Under the pieces are notes generated by a model that did no database searches, was not told the origin of the DNA, and was given only the letters and a program-made list of their open reading frames with translations. Positions 49,684 to 57,313 of a DNA stretch of 64,000 nt are shown here, in pieces. The stretch's first letter is position 1. Each line of letters starts with the position of its first letter. The stretch is from Armatimonadota bacterium. GTDB lineage: Bacteria; Armatimonadota; Fimbriimonadia; Fimbriimonadales; Fimbriimonadaceae. The translations under genes were made by a program, and so were the position numbers. Location: assembly GCA_018268395.1 (NCBI GenBank), contig JAFDWQ010000003.1:703353-767352 (forward strand), given 5' to 3'.

Positions 49684-50214
49684 ATGAACGGACTCTTGAA
49701 CGCAGCGGCGGCATTCTTCGCGTCAGCATTCGCATTCCTGGCTCCGGCACCGAAGCCGGTCGCGGAACCGAACGTGAAGGACATGGAAGGTAAGCCGCTC
49801 CCCGCCTTCGCAATGCGGACGGTCGACAACAAGAAGGTCGACAACGCGACGATCAAGGGCAAACCGGTCCTGATCGATTTTTGGGCCACGTGGTGCGGCC
49901 CGTGCAAGAAGGCGTCTCCCCTCCTTCAGCAACTTCACACGAAGTACAAGTCCAAGGGCTTGGTCGTCATCGGTGCGAACGGGCTCGAGGACGAATCCGG
50001 TCCCTCGGCGGCATCGGGCTACGCCCGCGAGCACAAGTACACGTACGTGTTCACTCACTCGAACGACGGCCTTATGAGCAAGTGGGCCGTTCAAGCCTTG
50101 CCGACCATGTTGCTCGTCGACCGCACGGGCAAGGTCGTGAAGGTCCAGATCGGCTACAGCGACAAGGTGGGCACTCAGTTGTCCACATTGGTCGAGCAAC
50201 TGGTCAAAGGCTAA
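49684..50214 (+). CDS. Exported thioredoxin-like (TlpA/ResA type) protein
   Basis: A 176-residue exported thiol-disulfide oxidoreductase. A hydrophobic N-terminus (residues 1-22, AAAAFFASAFAFLAPAPK) acts as signal or anchor; then the TlpA-like domain with LPAFAMRTVDNKKV, FWATWCGPCKKASPLLQ (active-site CGPC) and cis-Pro in VQALPTMLLVDRTGKVV. It should reduce disulfides in the periplasm, perhaps for cytochrome c maturation (the window has two heme c proteins). AAAGGA lies just upstream of the ATG. A strong hairpin follows the gene. Confidence 0.9.
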   Translation: MNGLLNAAAAFFASAFAFLAPAPKPVAEPNVKDMEGKPLPAFAMRTVDNKKVDNATIKGKPVLIDFWATWCGPCKKASPLLQQLHTKYKSKGLVVIGANGLEDESGPSAASGYAREHKYTYVFTHSNDGLMSKWAVQALPTMLLVDRTGKVVKVQIGYSDKVGTQLSTLVEQLVKG

Positions 50215-50384: not shown

Positions 50385-50441
50385 AAAGGGTGCGCGTTCT
50401 TGTGCGGCCGATTGGCTGTGAGCGCGCGGAGAGGAATCTGA

Positions 50442-52571
50442 ATGGCAAACGAAGCACGTAAGGGCGCCGGTGAGCGCCTCGTCATCTCTATCGACCTGAA
50501 AGCCGGATCCAACGGCGAACGACCGGAAGGCCTCACTGCCTATCTCTTTGACGCCGGAGGGAAGCTGATCGAGCAGCGTCCCATCGGAAAGGGAGGAAAA
50601 CTCGAGTTCAAGGCGACGGCACCGGCGGTCGACCAGGACTACCGGCTGATCGTGGGACCGGACACGGGCGACGAGAAGCCCACGCTGTCCGGTCTGCGGA
50701 GGGCGCAAGCGTTCGAATCACGGATCACGTCCCTCGGCTCCCAATGGAAAGGGACGCGCGACTTCGTCATCGACGGTCTGATATGGGACGAGTGGCTTCG
50801 GCCACGGTGTTGCGTCCGAGGCAAAGTCGTCAAGCGCGTCGGAACGGGGTCGCACGCGGTGGAACTGCCCGTCTGCAGTTCCACGGTCGAAGTCTACGAA
50901 GTGGACCCGCTCGAGATCCTCCTGCCGCGGATCCCTGACCTCGAACTTGATAAGTTCCGACGGTACATCGTCGACCGACCGATCCCCCGACCCGGTGACC
51001 CGCCGCCTTTCGAGCGCGGGCCGATCGGACCGCCGCCACTGCCTCCGCAAACGGGCCTCATGGCGAAGTTCCGAGGAGGGGGCCTGGATCTGTCGGCCTT
51101 GTCCGGAGACCGACAAAGGATGTTCGACACGTTACCGGACTCGTTTCGGGCGGCCGTCTCGTCCGGCGACATGCGGACTCTTCGGTCCGAGCTGCTGCTG
51201 AACCCTCACATCGCGTGGCCGATCTTCTGCTGGTTCTGGCCCCGGTTCGTCACCAAGACAAAGGTCGGGGAAGGCGCCGTCGATTCCCAAGGTCGATTCA
51301 AGGTCTGCTTCAGGCGCAGTTTCTGGAACCCGGACCAGCCCGACCTTTGGTTCAAGGTCGTCCAGGACAAGGGGACGCCCGAGGAGGCGGTCATTCACGC
51401 GCTCTATCCCGTGGGGTGCCATACCTGGTGGAACTTCGCCTGCGGATCGGAGGTCACGCTATACGCCGGGCCCCACGCGCGGACGTGTTACGACGATCCC
51501 GTTTACGGAATGGACGGTGAGTGGGTCGTTTTGGAAGCCATCGGAACGGTTTCGCCGGACGCGGTCTACGGGTTGAGCCAGACCCTTGCCGGATCGACGA
51601 CGTCCGGAGTTTCGGGGAACATCGGGACGATCGAGAACGGCGGGCCGGTCGACTCCCCGTTCGCGAACCTGATCCGAATCCGGCTTCAGTTTTCGGCGGG
51701 ACTTAGGGCGCTGGGGGCGATGTACCGCGTGTCGGCTTCGGTCGACGGTGGCGCGACCTGGACGTTGCTCGACCGGGAGGTTCGAAGGACGTACGTCAGG
51801 ACCGTCGGCGGCCATCCGGTCTACGACAGGCTCAAGCTGGGACCGACCACGGCCGCCCCGATCAACTTCTTCTCTTCGCAGCCACTGGCTGCTCCGTTGG
51901 GTGGCGCATGGACCATCCCGGCCGGCAGCGAACGCGACGATCTCACGAGCGCTTATCTGCCGACGATCGGTGCAGGGCCGACCGAACTCACGAACGGAAA
52001 AGTGCTGTTGCGGGTGGAAGTCTTCGACAATACGGGCGCGGCGATGCCGATGGGCGGGCCAGTGCCGTATGACTTTTACCTGTACGTCAGCCCGTCCGTC
52101 GATCCGGTCGACGCCGGGACGCTTCCTGCGACCGTCTCGGTCGGGGGTAACGCAATGGAATTCACGTTGCACGTGGACAACCGTCCGTGCTATGCCGAAA
52201 TCCAACAGCCGAGGATCGGGAGCGACCTGGCTAGCCTGAACTGTGGCGGACTGACCTACCATGACGCTAGTGCCGACCTCGAAGTCCCGTTCGTCGCGTC
52301 GCATCCCGAGATGCGGTGCTGGCACGAGTTCGGAATGGTCCGCGGTGCGAACAACGCGTTCCCGTTCGTCGAGTCCGCCGACGCGACCCCTGGATACTTC
52401 CGCGCGACCGCCTCGATCTCAGACATGCTCGGAGGCTGCTCCGGAGCAGCGTTCTCGGCCAATTTGTCCGTCTTCGCACTGGCGACGGACGGTTGGGACA
52501 GGCAGAGCCAGTTCGACCGGTACTGGGTGTACGCGTTCATGTTGACGCCAGGGCCGTTGCCGCATCCTTAA
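50442..52571 (+). CDS. Large uncharacterised protein with Cys/Trp motifs (CHTWWNFACGSEVT)
   Basis: A 709-residue protein without signal peptide or membrane segment. Residues 10-65 form a beta-sandwich-like domain (LVISIDLKAGSNG, LTAYLFDAGGKLIEQRPIGK). Residues 120-155 (RCCVRGKVVKR, ELPVCSSTVEVYEVDPLEILLPRIPDL) resemble a carboxypeptidase-regulatory-like fold. A proline-rich linker (190-205) is followed by IAWPIFCWFWPRF and then VGCHTWWNFACGSEVTLYAG; the CHTWWNxxCGSEVT motif recurs in large hypothetical proteins I have seen in other phyla, without a known role. The second half has several beta domains (ASVDGGATWTLLDREVRRTYV, YDFYLYVSPSVDP, MEFTLHVDNRP). GGAGAGGAAT is the ribosome site. I do not assign a function. 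Confidence 0.85.
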   Translation: MANEARKGAGERLVISIDLKAGSNGERPEGLTAYLFDAGGKLIEQRPIGKGGKLEFKATAPAVDQDYRLIVGPDTGDEKPTLSGLRRAQAFESRITSLGSQWKGTRDFVIDGLIWDEWLRPRCCVRGKVVKRVGTGSHAVELPVCSSTVEVYEVDPLEILLPRIPDLELDKFRRYIVDRPIPRPGDPPPFERGPIGPPPLPPQTGLMAKFRGGGLDLSALSGDRQRMFDTLPDSFRAAVSSGDMRTLRSELLLNPHIAWPIFCWFWPRFVTKTKVGEGAVDSQGRFKVCFRRSFWNPDQPDLWFKVVQDKGTPEEAVIHALYPVGCHTWWNFACGSEVTLYAGPHARTCYDDPVYGMDGEWVVLEAIGTVSPDAVYGLSQTLAGSTTSGVSGNIGTIENGGPVDSPFANLIRIRLQFSAGLRALGAMYRVSASVDGGATWTLLDREVRRTYVRTVGGHPVYDRLKLGPTTAAPINFFSSQPLAAPLGGAWTIPAGSERDDLTSAYLPTIGAGPTELTNGKVLLRVEVFDNTGAAMPMGGPVPYDFYLYVSPSVDPVDAGTLPATVSVGGNAMEFTLHVDNRPCYAEIQQPRIGSDLASLNCGGLTYHDASADLEVPFVASHPEMRCWHEFGMVRGANNAFPFVESADATPGYFRATASISDMLGGCSGAAFSANLSVFALATDGWDRQSQFDRYWVYAFMLTPGPLPHP

Positions 52572-53167: not shown

Positions 53168-54094
53168 ATGGACGCGGACTTCGAAAGACGGCTGGACAAC
53201 CTCGTGCGCGGTCTTGCTTCGACGCGGGGCCTGGACGCGACAAACGTCGCCAGAGCGTTCGACTACAGCGTCGCCCAGACTTACCGGTTGTTCGCCAAGA
53301 CGGTCGGTGAAAGCCCAGGGCGCTTCAGGCGCCGGTTGCTACTCGAACGCGCTGCTGCGAAGCTGAGCACCCCAAGGACCACGGTCGGCTCGGTCGCGGT
53401 CGAAGCCGGCTATGGCTCGACCGAAGGGTTCGCCCGCGCGTTCGAAAAGTCGTTCAAGACGAAGCCCACGGAGTGGCGCAAGCGGCCGGGGCCGTACCCG
53501 TGGCTTCCCGCTCCGAGCGGGATCCACTATTGGCAGGGCGCGTTCGTCCGCTCCATGTCCCAAGGAACGAAAACAATGAACCCGATAAGACACATGGTCG
53601 CACACGACCTTTGGACGACATCGCGCCTCCTGGACCGCGCGCAGACACTCGGTGACGACGCCCTCGACGCTTCGCTGATACCGCCGGTCACCGTCGTCGC
53701 GTTCGAAGGCGAAGACAAGACCCTCCGCGTCGTCCTCGACCGGCTCGTCATGGCGAAAGAAGTCTGGGTCGCCGCGATCAAGGGCCGAGAGTTCGACTTT
53801 GCCGCACGCGACTCGTCCGTCGCGGGCATGATCGCCCGCCATGCCGCATCCGGCGTAGAGTTCAGCGACCTCGTCGAAGACCTCGATCAAGAAGGGAAGT
53901 GGGACGACCTCTTCATCGACGCGATGTGCTGCCCGCCGGAAACGTTCACCTTTGGAGGAGTCGTGGCGCACGTCCTCAATTTCGCCGCAGTCCGACGTTC
54001 CCTCGTCCTGCGCGAGTTTGCGAGACTCGGCCATGACGACCTTGGATACGGCGACCCGATCGACTACGAACGAAAGGCGGAAGCGGGCGTCTAG
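53168..54094 (+). CDS. AraC-type HTH fused to a DinB-like domain
   Basis: A 308-residue fusion. Residues 1-105 are an AraC/XylS double helix-turn-helix (FDYSVAQTYRLFAKTVGESPG, then VAVEAGYGSTEGFARAFEKSFKTKPTEWRK, a normal second HTH). Residues 137-300 form a DinB-like four-helix domain (MVAHDLWTTSRLLDRAQTLGD, LVMAKEVWVAAIKGREFDF, THGGVVAHVLNFAAVRRSLVL-like pattern) with candidate metal-binding histidines at His140 (HMVAHD) and in VVAHVLNF. It may be a regulator whose activity depends on a thiol or metal ligand. The 3' end overlaps the convergent tricorn gene by four bases. Confidence 0.8.
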   Translation: MDADFERRLDNLVRGLASTRGLDATNVARAFDYSVAQTYRLFAKTVGESPGRFRRRLLLERAAAKLSTPRTTVGSVAVEAGYGSTEGFARAFEKSFKTKPTEWRKRPGPYPWLPAPSGIHYWQGAFVRSMSQGTKTMNPIRHMVAHDLWTTSRLLDRAQTLGDDALDASLIPPVTVVAFEGEDKTLRVVLDRLVMAKEVWVAAIKGREFDFAARDSSVAGMIARHAASGVEFSDLVEDLDQEGKWDDLFIDAMCCPPETFTFGGVVAHVLNFAAVRRSLVLREFARLGHDDLGYGDPIDYERKAEAGV

Positions 54095-57000
54095 CCGCCC
54101 GCTCCCTTCGTCCGCACCCTGTCCGGCGGCTGTTGCGGCCACTGGACAGGCTTCTTCTTCAGCGCCTCGAGCATCGATTTCACCGCCACGTCGAGTTGCG
54201 GGTCGGTGCCCTTGACCCAGGCGCCGGGATCGGAAGGCACGTCGATGTCCGGGGACACGCCCGCGCCTTCGATGACCCACGACTTGCCTGTGAACATGCC
54301 GTAGTTCGGAACGTTGATCACGCCCCCGTCGACGAGCGGCCATCCCGGTGACGAGCCGACTTCGCCGCCCATGGTGCGACGACCGATCAGGGGGCCGAGG
54401 CCAAGGTCTTTGAACCGGTGCGGGAACTCTTCACCGCAAGAGATCGCAAACTCGTTGATCAGGCAGCACATCGGTCCGATGAAGGCGTCGCTTTGTCTCG
54501 ACCAAGGCTCGCGGCTGTTCCGCATGTTGAAGTAACCGGAGACCTTTGCTCCGAGGACGTTGTTCACGAGCGTCTGGATGTAGCCCCCGTTGTTGAAGCG
54601 GTCGTCGACGATCAGGGCCTCCTTGTTGCGCTGCGAAAAGTATTGCTTGATGAAGTCGCTCATGTCGTCGTCGCCCATCGCGGCGAGATGAAGATAACCC
54701 ACCCGGCCGCCGCTCGCCTTCTCGACGTACTTGCGGTTGTTCGCGACCCACTCGACGTAGCGCATCCTCCCTTCGTCGGCGACGGGCTTGACGTAGACCG
54801 TAAAAGCACCGACACCGGTCGCGTCCTTGGCGAAGGTCAAGGAGACGACTTGTCCGGCCCGACCGACCAAGGCGTCCGACACGTCCATCACGGACGACAC
54901 GGGCTCGCCGCCGACCTTGAGCAGGAACATGCCGTCCTTGACGCCCAGCGAAGGATCGGCCAAGGGGGAACGTTCCGAGGCCCTGTAACCGTCGCCCCTG
55001 ACGATATGGGAGACCTTGATCTTCGTCCCCTCCGCGGCATAGTCGACGCCGAGGTACGACGCCGCGAGCCGAGGTTTGACGTTCCGCCCGTCACCACCGC
55101 CGAGGTACTGGTGCGACGACCCGATTTCGGCCTGCATCCAACGGATGAGTTCGTTCAGCTCCGGTCGGCTCCGCACGCTCGGCAACATGGCGCTGTACTT
55201 CGCCCCGATCGCGTCCCAGTCGTTGCCGTGCATGTTCTCGACATAGAAATAGTCGCGCGAGAGCCTCCAGGCGTCCCAGAAGATCTGCTTCCACTCGGTC
55301 AAGGGCTCGATCTGGAGCCGCAGTCCGCCGAAGGACAGGACGCCCGCCGTCGGAGGCAGGTCGCTGCCGGTCGAGTCGACGACGCGGAACGTCCGGCCCC
55401 GCCCGACGAGGAGCTTGCTCCCGTCCTTACTGAGCTCGAAGCCGCCGCCCGGTGTCACCGTACCGCCCTTCTTCGCCGCGATATCGTAGTACGTGACGTT
55501 GCCTTCGCCGGCGAAAAGGACGCGGTTCCCGACCATCGCGATCCGGGTGTACGTCCCGTTGACCGGAAGTTCGATACGGCGCTCATAGAGGCCGTCCCAA
55601 TCGATCCGGAAAGGCTCGTCTTTCTTGTCCTCCTTCTTCGGCTCGCTCTCCTCAGGGTCCATGACGGCGAAGGGGCTCTTCGTGTCCGCCTTCAGCGGCA
55701 CGATGTAAGCGATCCCGGTCTTCCCGAGGTTGAGCTGGTTGAGGATCGGATCGTTGTTGACGCCGAGCTCACGGTTGCTCAAAAACGCCAGCCACTTTCC
55801 GTCCTGGCTGAACGCGACGCCCGTATCGTCCGACGTGCCGTCGCCCACGACTTTCGACTGTCCGGTCTCGAGCTCGTACAACTCGATCTGACTGATCGAC
55901 GTATGGAGGACCGTCCGGTCGAACGCCACCCACTTCGAGTCGGGCGAGAAGCTCACGACCGGGCCCCGCCAAGAACCCGTGAAGCGGGCGATCTCCTTGT
56001 CCTCGCCGGTGGCGACGTTCAGGGCGCCGAGCCGCATCCGGCTATCGTAGGTGACGATCCACTTTCCGTCGGGCGACCAGACCAGGGACATGACCTGCCG
56101 CTTACCGTCCGAGAGCTTCTTCGCTCCCGTACCGTCGGCGTCCGAGACCCAGACCTGCTGCTCGCCCGATTCGTCGCTGACATAGGCGACTTTCTTCGCG
56201 TCCGGCGACATCCTCGCCTGTTGGAGCCTGGCACCCGGCTTCGCTTTCCACAACCTGGCCTCGCCTTCGCCGACGGGCAAGGAGACGATCTGGCCGCGCG
56301 TTTCGACCAGGGCCCGTTTGGCTCCCGGAGTCAGCGTCGCGTCGACCGAATAGTCCTGAGCGGCGACCGTGTACGGCCGCGTGTGGACGAGGTCGCTCTG
56401 AAGGTCGAACGTCACCGCCGACGTCTTGCCCGTCGCAGGATCGAAGACCTCGACGTCGCGGCCCTTCTCATAGACCACCTTCGTGCCGTCGGTCGAGAGT
56501 TCGCGCATCTCGACGTCGTAGGGTCCCGCTTCCTTCTTCGGTCTACCCCCCGACGCCTCGACCGACATCAGCGTGAACTTCGCGCCTTCCTGGTTGACGA
56601 AGTAGATCCTGCTCCCGCACCAGACCGGATACTCGTTCGTGCCTTCCAGGTCGGTCAGTTGCTTGAACTGTCCGTTGCGGTGCACCCAAATCTGGTTCGA
56701 CATCCCCCCGATGTAATGGAACCATGCCGTCGACCAACGCAGGAACCGCGTGAAGGTGAAGTCGTCTTGCGTCGGTCCGAACCAGACGTGGCTGGCGAAT
56801 TCCAGAGGCACCCGCTTCGGCGCGCCGCCCGCGACGGGGACGGACTCGTAGACGTAACTTTCGGGGATGCCGATCCGCCGGTAGACCACGCTCTTGCCGT
56901 CGGGCGTCCAACCGGTCACGGCGCGGAACTCCATCGCCGGGGTCACGCGCTTCGGCGCACCGCCTTCGACGGGCATGACATAGGCGCCGCGGAACCCGTC

Positions 57001-57231
57001 GTATTCGGCGTGAAAGGCGACCGTTTTCCCGTCAGGGCTGAAGACGGGATTGTCTTCGAGCCCAGGGTCGCTCGTCAGGCGCCTCGCGCCGCCCGTTTTG
57101 AGGTCGCCGATCCAGACGTCGCCTTCGCAACTGAAGGCCACCATATCGCCGTGGACGTCGGGATAGCGGAGGAACGGGGGCCCTTGGAGCGTCGGGGCCA
57201 TCAAAATGAAGGGTAACGCGATCGCGTTCAT
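54091..57231 (-). CDS. Tricorn-like protease (beta-propeller, PDZ and S41 domain)
   Basis: A 1046-residue exported or envelope protease related to the tricorn core. The start at 57231 gives a short hydrophobic N-terminus. A first propeller (residues 20-330: FSPDGKTVAFHAEYDGF, WTPDGKSVVYRR), a second WD40-like propeller (residues 360-620: MSPDAKKVAYVSDESGEQQVWVS, WSPDGKWIVTYD) and a PDZ-like domain (VKDGMFLLKVGGEPVSSVMDVSDALVGRAGQ) precede the S41 domain, with ALIVDDRFNNGG and the nucleophile region LINEFAISCGEEFPHRF and GPLIGRRTMGGEVG. It trims peptides to short fragments. Gene is convergent with the AraC-DinB gene. Confidence 0.9.
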   Translation of the reverse strand: MNAIALPFILMAPTLQGPPFLRYPDVHGDMVAFSCEGDVWIGDLKTGGARRLTSDPGLEDNPVFSPDGKTVAFHAEYDGFRGAYVMPVEGGAPKRVTPAMEFRAVTGWTPDGKSVVYRRIGIPESYVYESVPVAGGAPKRVPLEFASHVWFGPTQDDFTFTRFLRWSTAWFHYIGGMSNQIWVHRNGQFKQLTDLEGTNEYPVWCGSRIYFVNQEGAKFTLMSVEASGGRPKKEAGPYDVEMRELSTDGTKVVYEKGRDVEVFDPATGKTSAVTFDLQSDLVHTRPYTVAAQDYSVDATLTPGAKRALVETRGQIVSLPVGEGEARLWKAKPGARLQQARMSPDAKKVAYVSDESGEQQVWVSDADGTGAKKLSDGKRQVMSLVWSPDGKWIVTYDSRMRLGALNVATGEDKEIARFTGSWRGPVVSFSPDSKWVAFDRTVLHTSISQIELYELETGQSKVVGDGTSDDTGVAFSQDGKWLAFLSNRELGVNNDPILNQLNLGKTGIAYIVPLKADTKSPFAVMDPEESEPKKEDKKDEPFRIDWDGLYERRIELPVNGTYTRIAMVGNRVLFAGEGNVTYYDIAAKKGGTVTPGGGFELSKDGSKLLVGRGRTFRVVDSTGSDLPPTAGVLSFGGLRLQIEPLTEWKQIFWDAWRLSRDYFYVENMHGNDWDAIGAKYSAMLPSVRSRPELNELIRWMQAEIGSSHQYLGGGDGRNVKPRLAASYLGVDYAAEGTKIKVSHIVRGDGYRASERSPLADPSLGVKDGMFLLKVGGEPVSSVMDVSDALVGRAGQVVSLTFAKDATGVGAFTVYVKPVADEGRMRYVEWVANNRKYVEKASGGRVGYLHLAAMGDDDMSDFIKQYFSQRNKEALIVDDRFNNGGYIQTLVNNVLGAKVSGYFNMRNSREPWSRQSDAFIGPMCCLINEFAISCGEEFPHRFKDLGLGPLIGRRTMGGEVGSSPGWPLVDGGVINVPNYGMFTGKSWVIEGAGVSPDIDVPSDPGAWVKGTDPQLDVAVKSMLEALKKKPVQWPQQPPDRVRTKGAGG

Positions 57232-57313
57232 GCGTCGCGCCTGTTTACCCTGTCCGGGGGCCCTATGCCAGCTTTGAGCCGGACCCCTTGTCTTGGAGAT
57301 CCATGACCGCAAG

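Follow-up and report, generated by a model that had tools for sequence, protein, structure and literature searches.

A rare Armatimonadota protein family with conserved cysteines, beta-sandwich-like N-terminal domains and a C-terminal module common to secreted proteins

One gene in the window (the whole 64,000-nucleotide stretch of Armatimonadota DNA analysed here) encodes a 709-aa protein whose probable role lies in binding or structure, not in catalysis or in a phage tail. Both the protein family and its C-terminal module, for which there is no Pfam model, are uncatalogued and occur in a poorly studied phylum. As a tentative candidate role, we propose an accessory, non-enzymatic protein built of several beta-sandwiches that serves in binding or as a scaffold, possibly at the cell surface. 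The gene and the signals preceding it are as follows.

50442..52571, + strand: whole gene; 709 aa, no signal peptide, single copy in the genome
50356..50384, + strand: TTGCCG-N17-TAAGAT, the promoter named in the original prediction; 8 of 12 consensus bases, below the scan threshold
50428..50435, + strand: strong Shine-Dalgarno-like GGAGAGGA, 6 nt 5' of the ATG, read from the sequence

The open frame can be taken as a real gene because a 702-aa relative in a congeneric genome (G001) aligns with its product from end to end at 41% identity; within the frame, G+C content is highest at codon position 3. An in-frame TGA lies directly 5' of the ATG, so there is no upstream extension and no room for a hidden signal peptide. 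Peak hydropathy over 12 residues reaches 0.81 within the first 60 residues, as against 2.5-3.4 in relatives that do carry signal peptides, and by this measure the protein has neither a signal peptide nor any hydrophobic N-terminal segment. The absence of a signal peptide, already read from the sequence in the original prediction, is thereby borne out, and it extends to all full-length members examined. The gene had also been credited with a good promoter and a terminator of its own. The TTGCCG-N17-TAAGAT element is present, but given its modest match to consensus and a consensus scan that returned 0 promoters and 0 terminators at the gene, that part of the description does not hold.

The description of a large multi-domain protein of unknown function does hold. 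Searches of Pfam, PHROGs, NCBIfam and PDB sequences gave no match to the 709-aa protein even at permissive thresholds, and no library searched yielded a match to an enzyme family. A PDB sequence search with a six-member profile returned chance matches only (HIV gp120, E 0.17). Searches of PADLOC and PHROGs with members of the family were likewise without a match, and no known anti-phage defence model fits. The gene directly upstream, at 49684-50214 on the + strand, encodes a TlpA-like thioredoxin whose N-terminus is hydrophobic and which has a CGPC motif; G001 lacks this neighbourhood. Elsewhere in the window, 54091-57312 on the - strand encodes a tricorn-like protease (Peptidase_S41, Tricorn_C1, PDZ_Tricorn, PD40).

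The N-terminal half can be divided into two domains, the second of them interrupted by an insert.

50475..50777, + strand: domain 1, residues 12-112; seven-stranded transthyretin/CnaB-like beta-sandwich, from the model and fold comparison
50799..50909, + strand: first half of domain 2, residues 120-156; strands CVRGKVVKR and STVEVYEVD, with Cys123, 124 and 145
50910..51251, + strand: insert in domain 2, residues 157-270; proline-rich linker flanked by short helices
51222-51248, + strand: IFCWFWPRF, residues 261-269; ends the domain 2 insert
51252..51476, + strand: second half of domain 2, residues 271-345; strands KTKVGEGAVD, GRFKVCF and PDLWFKVVQ plus the CHTWWNFACGSEVT stretch
51417-51458, + strand: CHTWWNFACGSEVT, the CHTWWN..CGSEVT motif, residues 326-339; before and into the last strand of domain 2

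Structure prediction had been proposed as a check in the original prediction, and a model of the N-terminal 357 aa was built from three sequences (mean pLDDT 59.6). A seven-stranded, two-sheet Greek-key sandwich of the transthyretin/CnaB-like kind is seen in domain 1 only, in a model of moderate confidence with pLDDT mostly 57-84 per 10-residue block. Foldseek searches with the model found matches in transthyretin-like and CnaB folds (best E 1.4e-4). In VIA-align comparisons domain 1 superposes on examples of this fold (2gpz, 8bdw and the TIE protein 6fwv, PMC6194298) at Z 8.0-8.5 over 87 residues, the transthyretin-like 2gpz giving Z 8.5 and an rmsd of 2.7, though a Z near 8 may reflect merely a common arrangement. 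Because domain 1 dominates the VIA-align results, they hardly probe the fold of domain 2 or the C-terminus.

These likenesses raise the question of a CnaB/TIE-type surface adhesin with candidate intramolecular cross-links, a reading encouraged by the presence of the Bacillus anthracis TIE protein, SdrD and CnaB2 among the best Foldseek matches. We regard it as unlikely. Domain 1 is only 8-13% identical to the transthyretin-like and CnaB structures in the superpositions and has no family match, Pfam finds neither a CnaB nor a thioester domain, and the 709-aa protein, unlike proteins of those folds, has no signal peptide or hydrophobic segment. Nor does any sequence search group it with HIU hydrolases or with pilins.

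Domain 2 shows a sequence pattern resembling that of carboxypeptidase-regulatory-like domains: C-V-x-G-x-V and TVEVYEVD in the first half, then VDSQGRFKVCF and PDLWFKVVQ in the second. The first half, with modelled strands at 122-133 and 147-154, is conserved in the family, and the second has modelled strands at 272-279, 285-291, 302-308 and 337-341. Between them the model places insert helices at 157-177 and 224-265, with low confidence over 179-223, and the length of the insert differs among homologues. When the insert was removed and domain 2 was compared by hhalign with 24 CarboxypepD_reg domains from relatives, the two aligned in full register over 76 columns (score 10.0, E 0.05, which is not significant; controls including the reversed sequence and other comparisons scored 6.5 or less). 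The strand order and register of CarboxypepD_reg (PF13620) are thus weakly matched, whereas the proline-rich helical insert of about 110 residues and the conserved cysteines set domain 2 apart, and a Pfam scan of the 709-aa protein gave no PF13620 match. The several beta-sandwich-like domains of the original prediction are accordingly supported, by model and fold search, for the N-terminal half; the C-terminal half has no reliable model (pLDDT 33).

The paired cysteine and tryptophan clusters that first drew attention to this protein are both there, and they prove to be the Cys/Trp positions of the second N-terminal beta domain, which the insert splits. Their counterparts in G001 are IFCWHWPWF and CNTFWNYACGSEVK. 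Further afield, the counterpart of CHTWWNFACGSEVT is NTRWN-AGNAHIDV in another Fimbriimonadales genome (G106), whose homologue is 27% identical to the 709-aa protein, and SHNWFAAGEPADI in the distant genus g92. These variants mark the motifs as lineage-specific elaborations rather than an invariant signature; outside the genus, other members of the phylum show degraded forms, NTRWN or SHNWF, in place of the exact motif, whose supposed conservation in distant phyla was not found.

Constraint, which had been supposed for the motif, is nevertheless evident for the protein. It is strongest on the cysteines: 11 of 12 are identical in G001, compared with 267 of 666 other aligned residues (40%; Fisher p 4e-4). 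In an alignment of six full-length sequences, Cys124, 289 and 601 occur in every one; several others vary between lineages. Pairwise dN/dS among four intact g92 copies is 0.07-0.09, which indicates strong purifying selection on the copies in that genus.

The remainder of the protein is a module with a distribution of its own.

51516..52553, + strand: C-terminal module, residues 359-704; common to secreted CARDB-containing proteins of other Armatimonadota families

Profile searches matched this module in ten genomes at E 5.8e-46 to 5.8e-34, and hhalign aligned it with the module of the exported relatives at 100% and E 6e-52. The same stretch of about 345 residues, including three cysteines, recurs in secreted CARDB-type proteins of the ten genomes (loci L024-L033), where a signal-peptide-like N-terminus and CARDB stand in place of the two N-terminal domains of the 709-aa protein. 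Among these relatives with the C-terminal module only, hydrophobic, signal-peptide-like N-termini were present in 9 of 9 inspected and CARDB (PF07705) in 5 of 5 scanned, whereas a Pfam scan of the 709-aa protein gave no CARDB match. Cys583, 601 and 666 align with cysteines that are invariant in the exported relatives sampled.

It is because the C-terminal module and its cysteines are common to exported proteins that a surface location suggests itself. The protein would be one of stacked beta-sandwiches that has the transthyretin/CnaB-like domain 1, then the insert-split domain 2, and carries the C-terminal module, with the conserved cysteines forming disulfides that brace the domains or serving as metal ligands. 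Through the faces of its sandwiches it might bind a partner or ligand; the likeliest place for this is the cell surface, which the protein would reach without a Sec signal. With no signal peptide or hydrophobic segment, however, the N-terminus is equally compatible with a cytoplasmic protein. A close rival, doubtful but a serious contender, is a cytoplasmic protein whose cysteines bind metal or sense redox and whose beta domains are partner-binding arms, the shared C-terminal module having passed to it from exported proteins or from it to them. No full-length member examined has a signal peptide, the cysteines are strongly conserved, and in one genus the gene is linked to that of a sigma factor (see below), all of which agrees with such a protein. 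Against it, several of the N-terminal cysteine positions differ from lineage to lineage, unlike a fixed metal site, and the C-terminal cysteines are found in exported relatives too. The surface binding or scaffold protein remains our tentative preference.

Profile searches located homologues in 20 of 291 Armatimonadota genomes. Full-length proteins are encoded in the window, G001, G106 and five genomes of g92; G003 and G184 hold remnants, and ten genomes of families f41-f45 have the C-terminal module only. Similar proteins had been expected in distant phyla, yet none came to light. Plasmid and phage searches with the 709-aa protein and the full-length G106 homologue gave no match, nor did a plasmid search with the C-terminal module or viral-contig scans with the 709-aa protein and the N- and C-terminal alignments. 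Pattern scans of 84,980 genomes recovered only two relatives already known, exact peptide patterns being insensitive and too strict for distant phyla. The whole genomes of other phyla were scanned by such patterns alone, which leaves absence outside Armatimonadota weakly supported. By the searches used, then, the family appears rare, patchy and easily lost, and is found only in Armatimonadota. A literature search on Armatimonadota (Armatimonadetes) in connection with transthyretin-like proteins, CARDB or contractile injection systems turned up nothing relevant.

A tail-fibre or contractile-injection role had been floated for this protein, and domain 1 does resemble beta domains of phage tails and baseplates in a viral structure library, although a sandwich of this sort is generic. 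A role of that kind, or a phage origin more broadly, now seems very improbable. A Phage_sheath_1 gene is present in 0 of the 20 homologue-bearing genomes and in 32 of 271 others, counts that show no association, without reaching a significant anti-correlation. No match was found in PHROGs, phages or viral contigs. Inspection of the homologues' neighbours, suggested at the outset as a check, revealed no tail families among those scanned; those that did match a family are housekeeping, enzyme or regulator genes. Nothing about the 709-aa protein points to a new injection or phage system.

The history of the locus illustrates the patchiness of the family. Among genomes of the window's genus, G001 carries a full copy between dxs and nadA, and at that site G003 has a 132-aa open frame with domain 1 only (L035 8726-9124, - strand), likely a remnant. 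The two flanking genes are about 12 bp apart in G002, leaving no space for the gene, and in G000 dxs has different neighbours and the gene instead follows that for a TlpA-like thioredoxin. Two features of g92 loci bear on how the gene may be controlled.

L036 11119-11739, equivalents in L037-L040, - strand: sigma-70/ECF-type gene directly upstream of the five g92 homologues
L114 7255-7602, - strand: G184 remnant of about 116 C-terminal residues, between conserved flanking genes

The sigma gene (sigma-70 regions 2 and 4) is co-directional with the homologue just downstream in 5 of 5 g92 genomes compared. In G184, a sixth genome of the genus, the flanking genes are kept and both the sigma gene and residues 1-647 are absent. 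No sigma gene of this kind lies near the gene in the window or G001. Joint presence and joint loss suggest that the sigma gene and the g92 homologue work together, and production of the protein may be on demand, at least in genomes that have the sigma gene beside it. The fullest version of this idea is a long shot: a cassette specific to the phylum, with a dedicated ECF-type sigma factor in control of a large cysteine-braced multi-beta-sandwich protein that gets to the surface without a signal peptide and ends in a module that is otherwise Sec-exported. The co-occurring sigma gene does offer a simple handle on the protein's role. Abundant ECF sigma factors have been reported in Chthonomonas and Fimbriimonas (PMC4959169, PMC4072686), so one beside the gene is not rare in itself, and the joint loss is the stronger point. 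One of the five g92 copies, that in G183 (L040 7877-10181, - strand), is read as two overlapping frames, reflecting a frameshift or a sequencing error.
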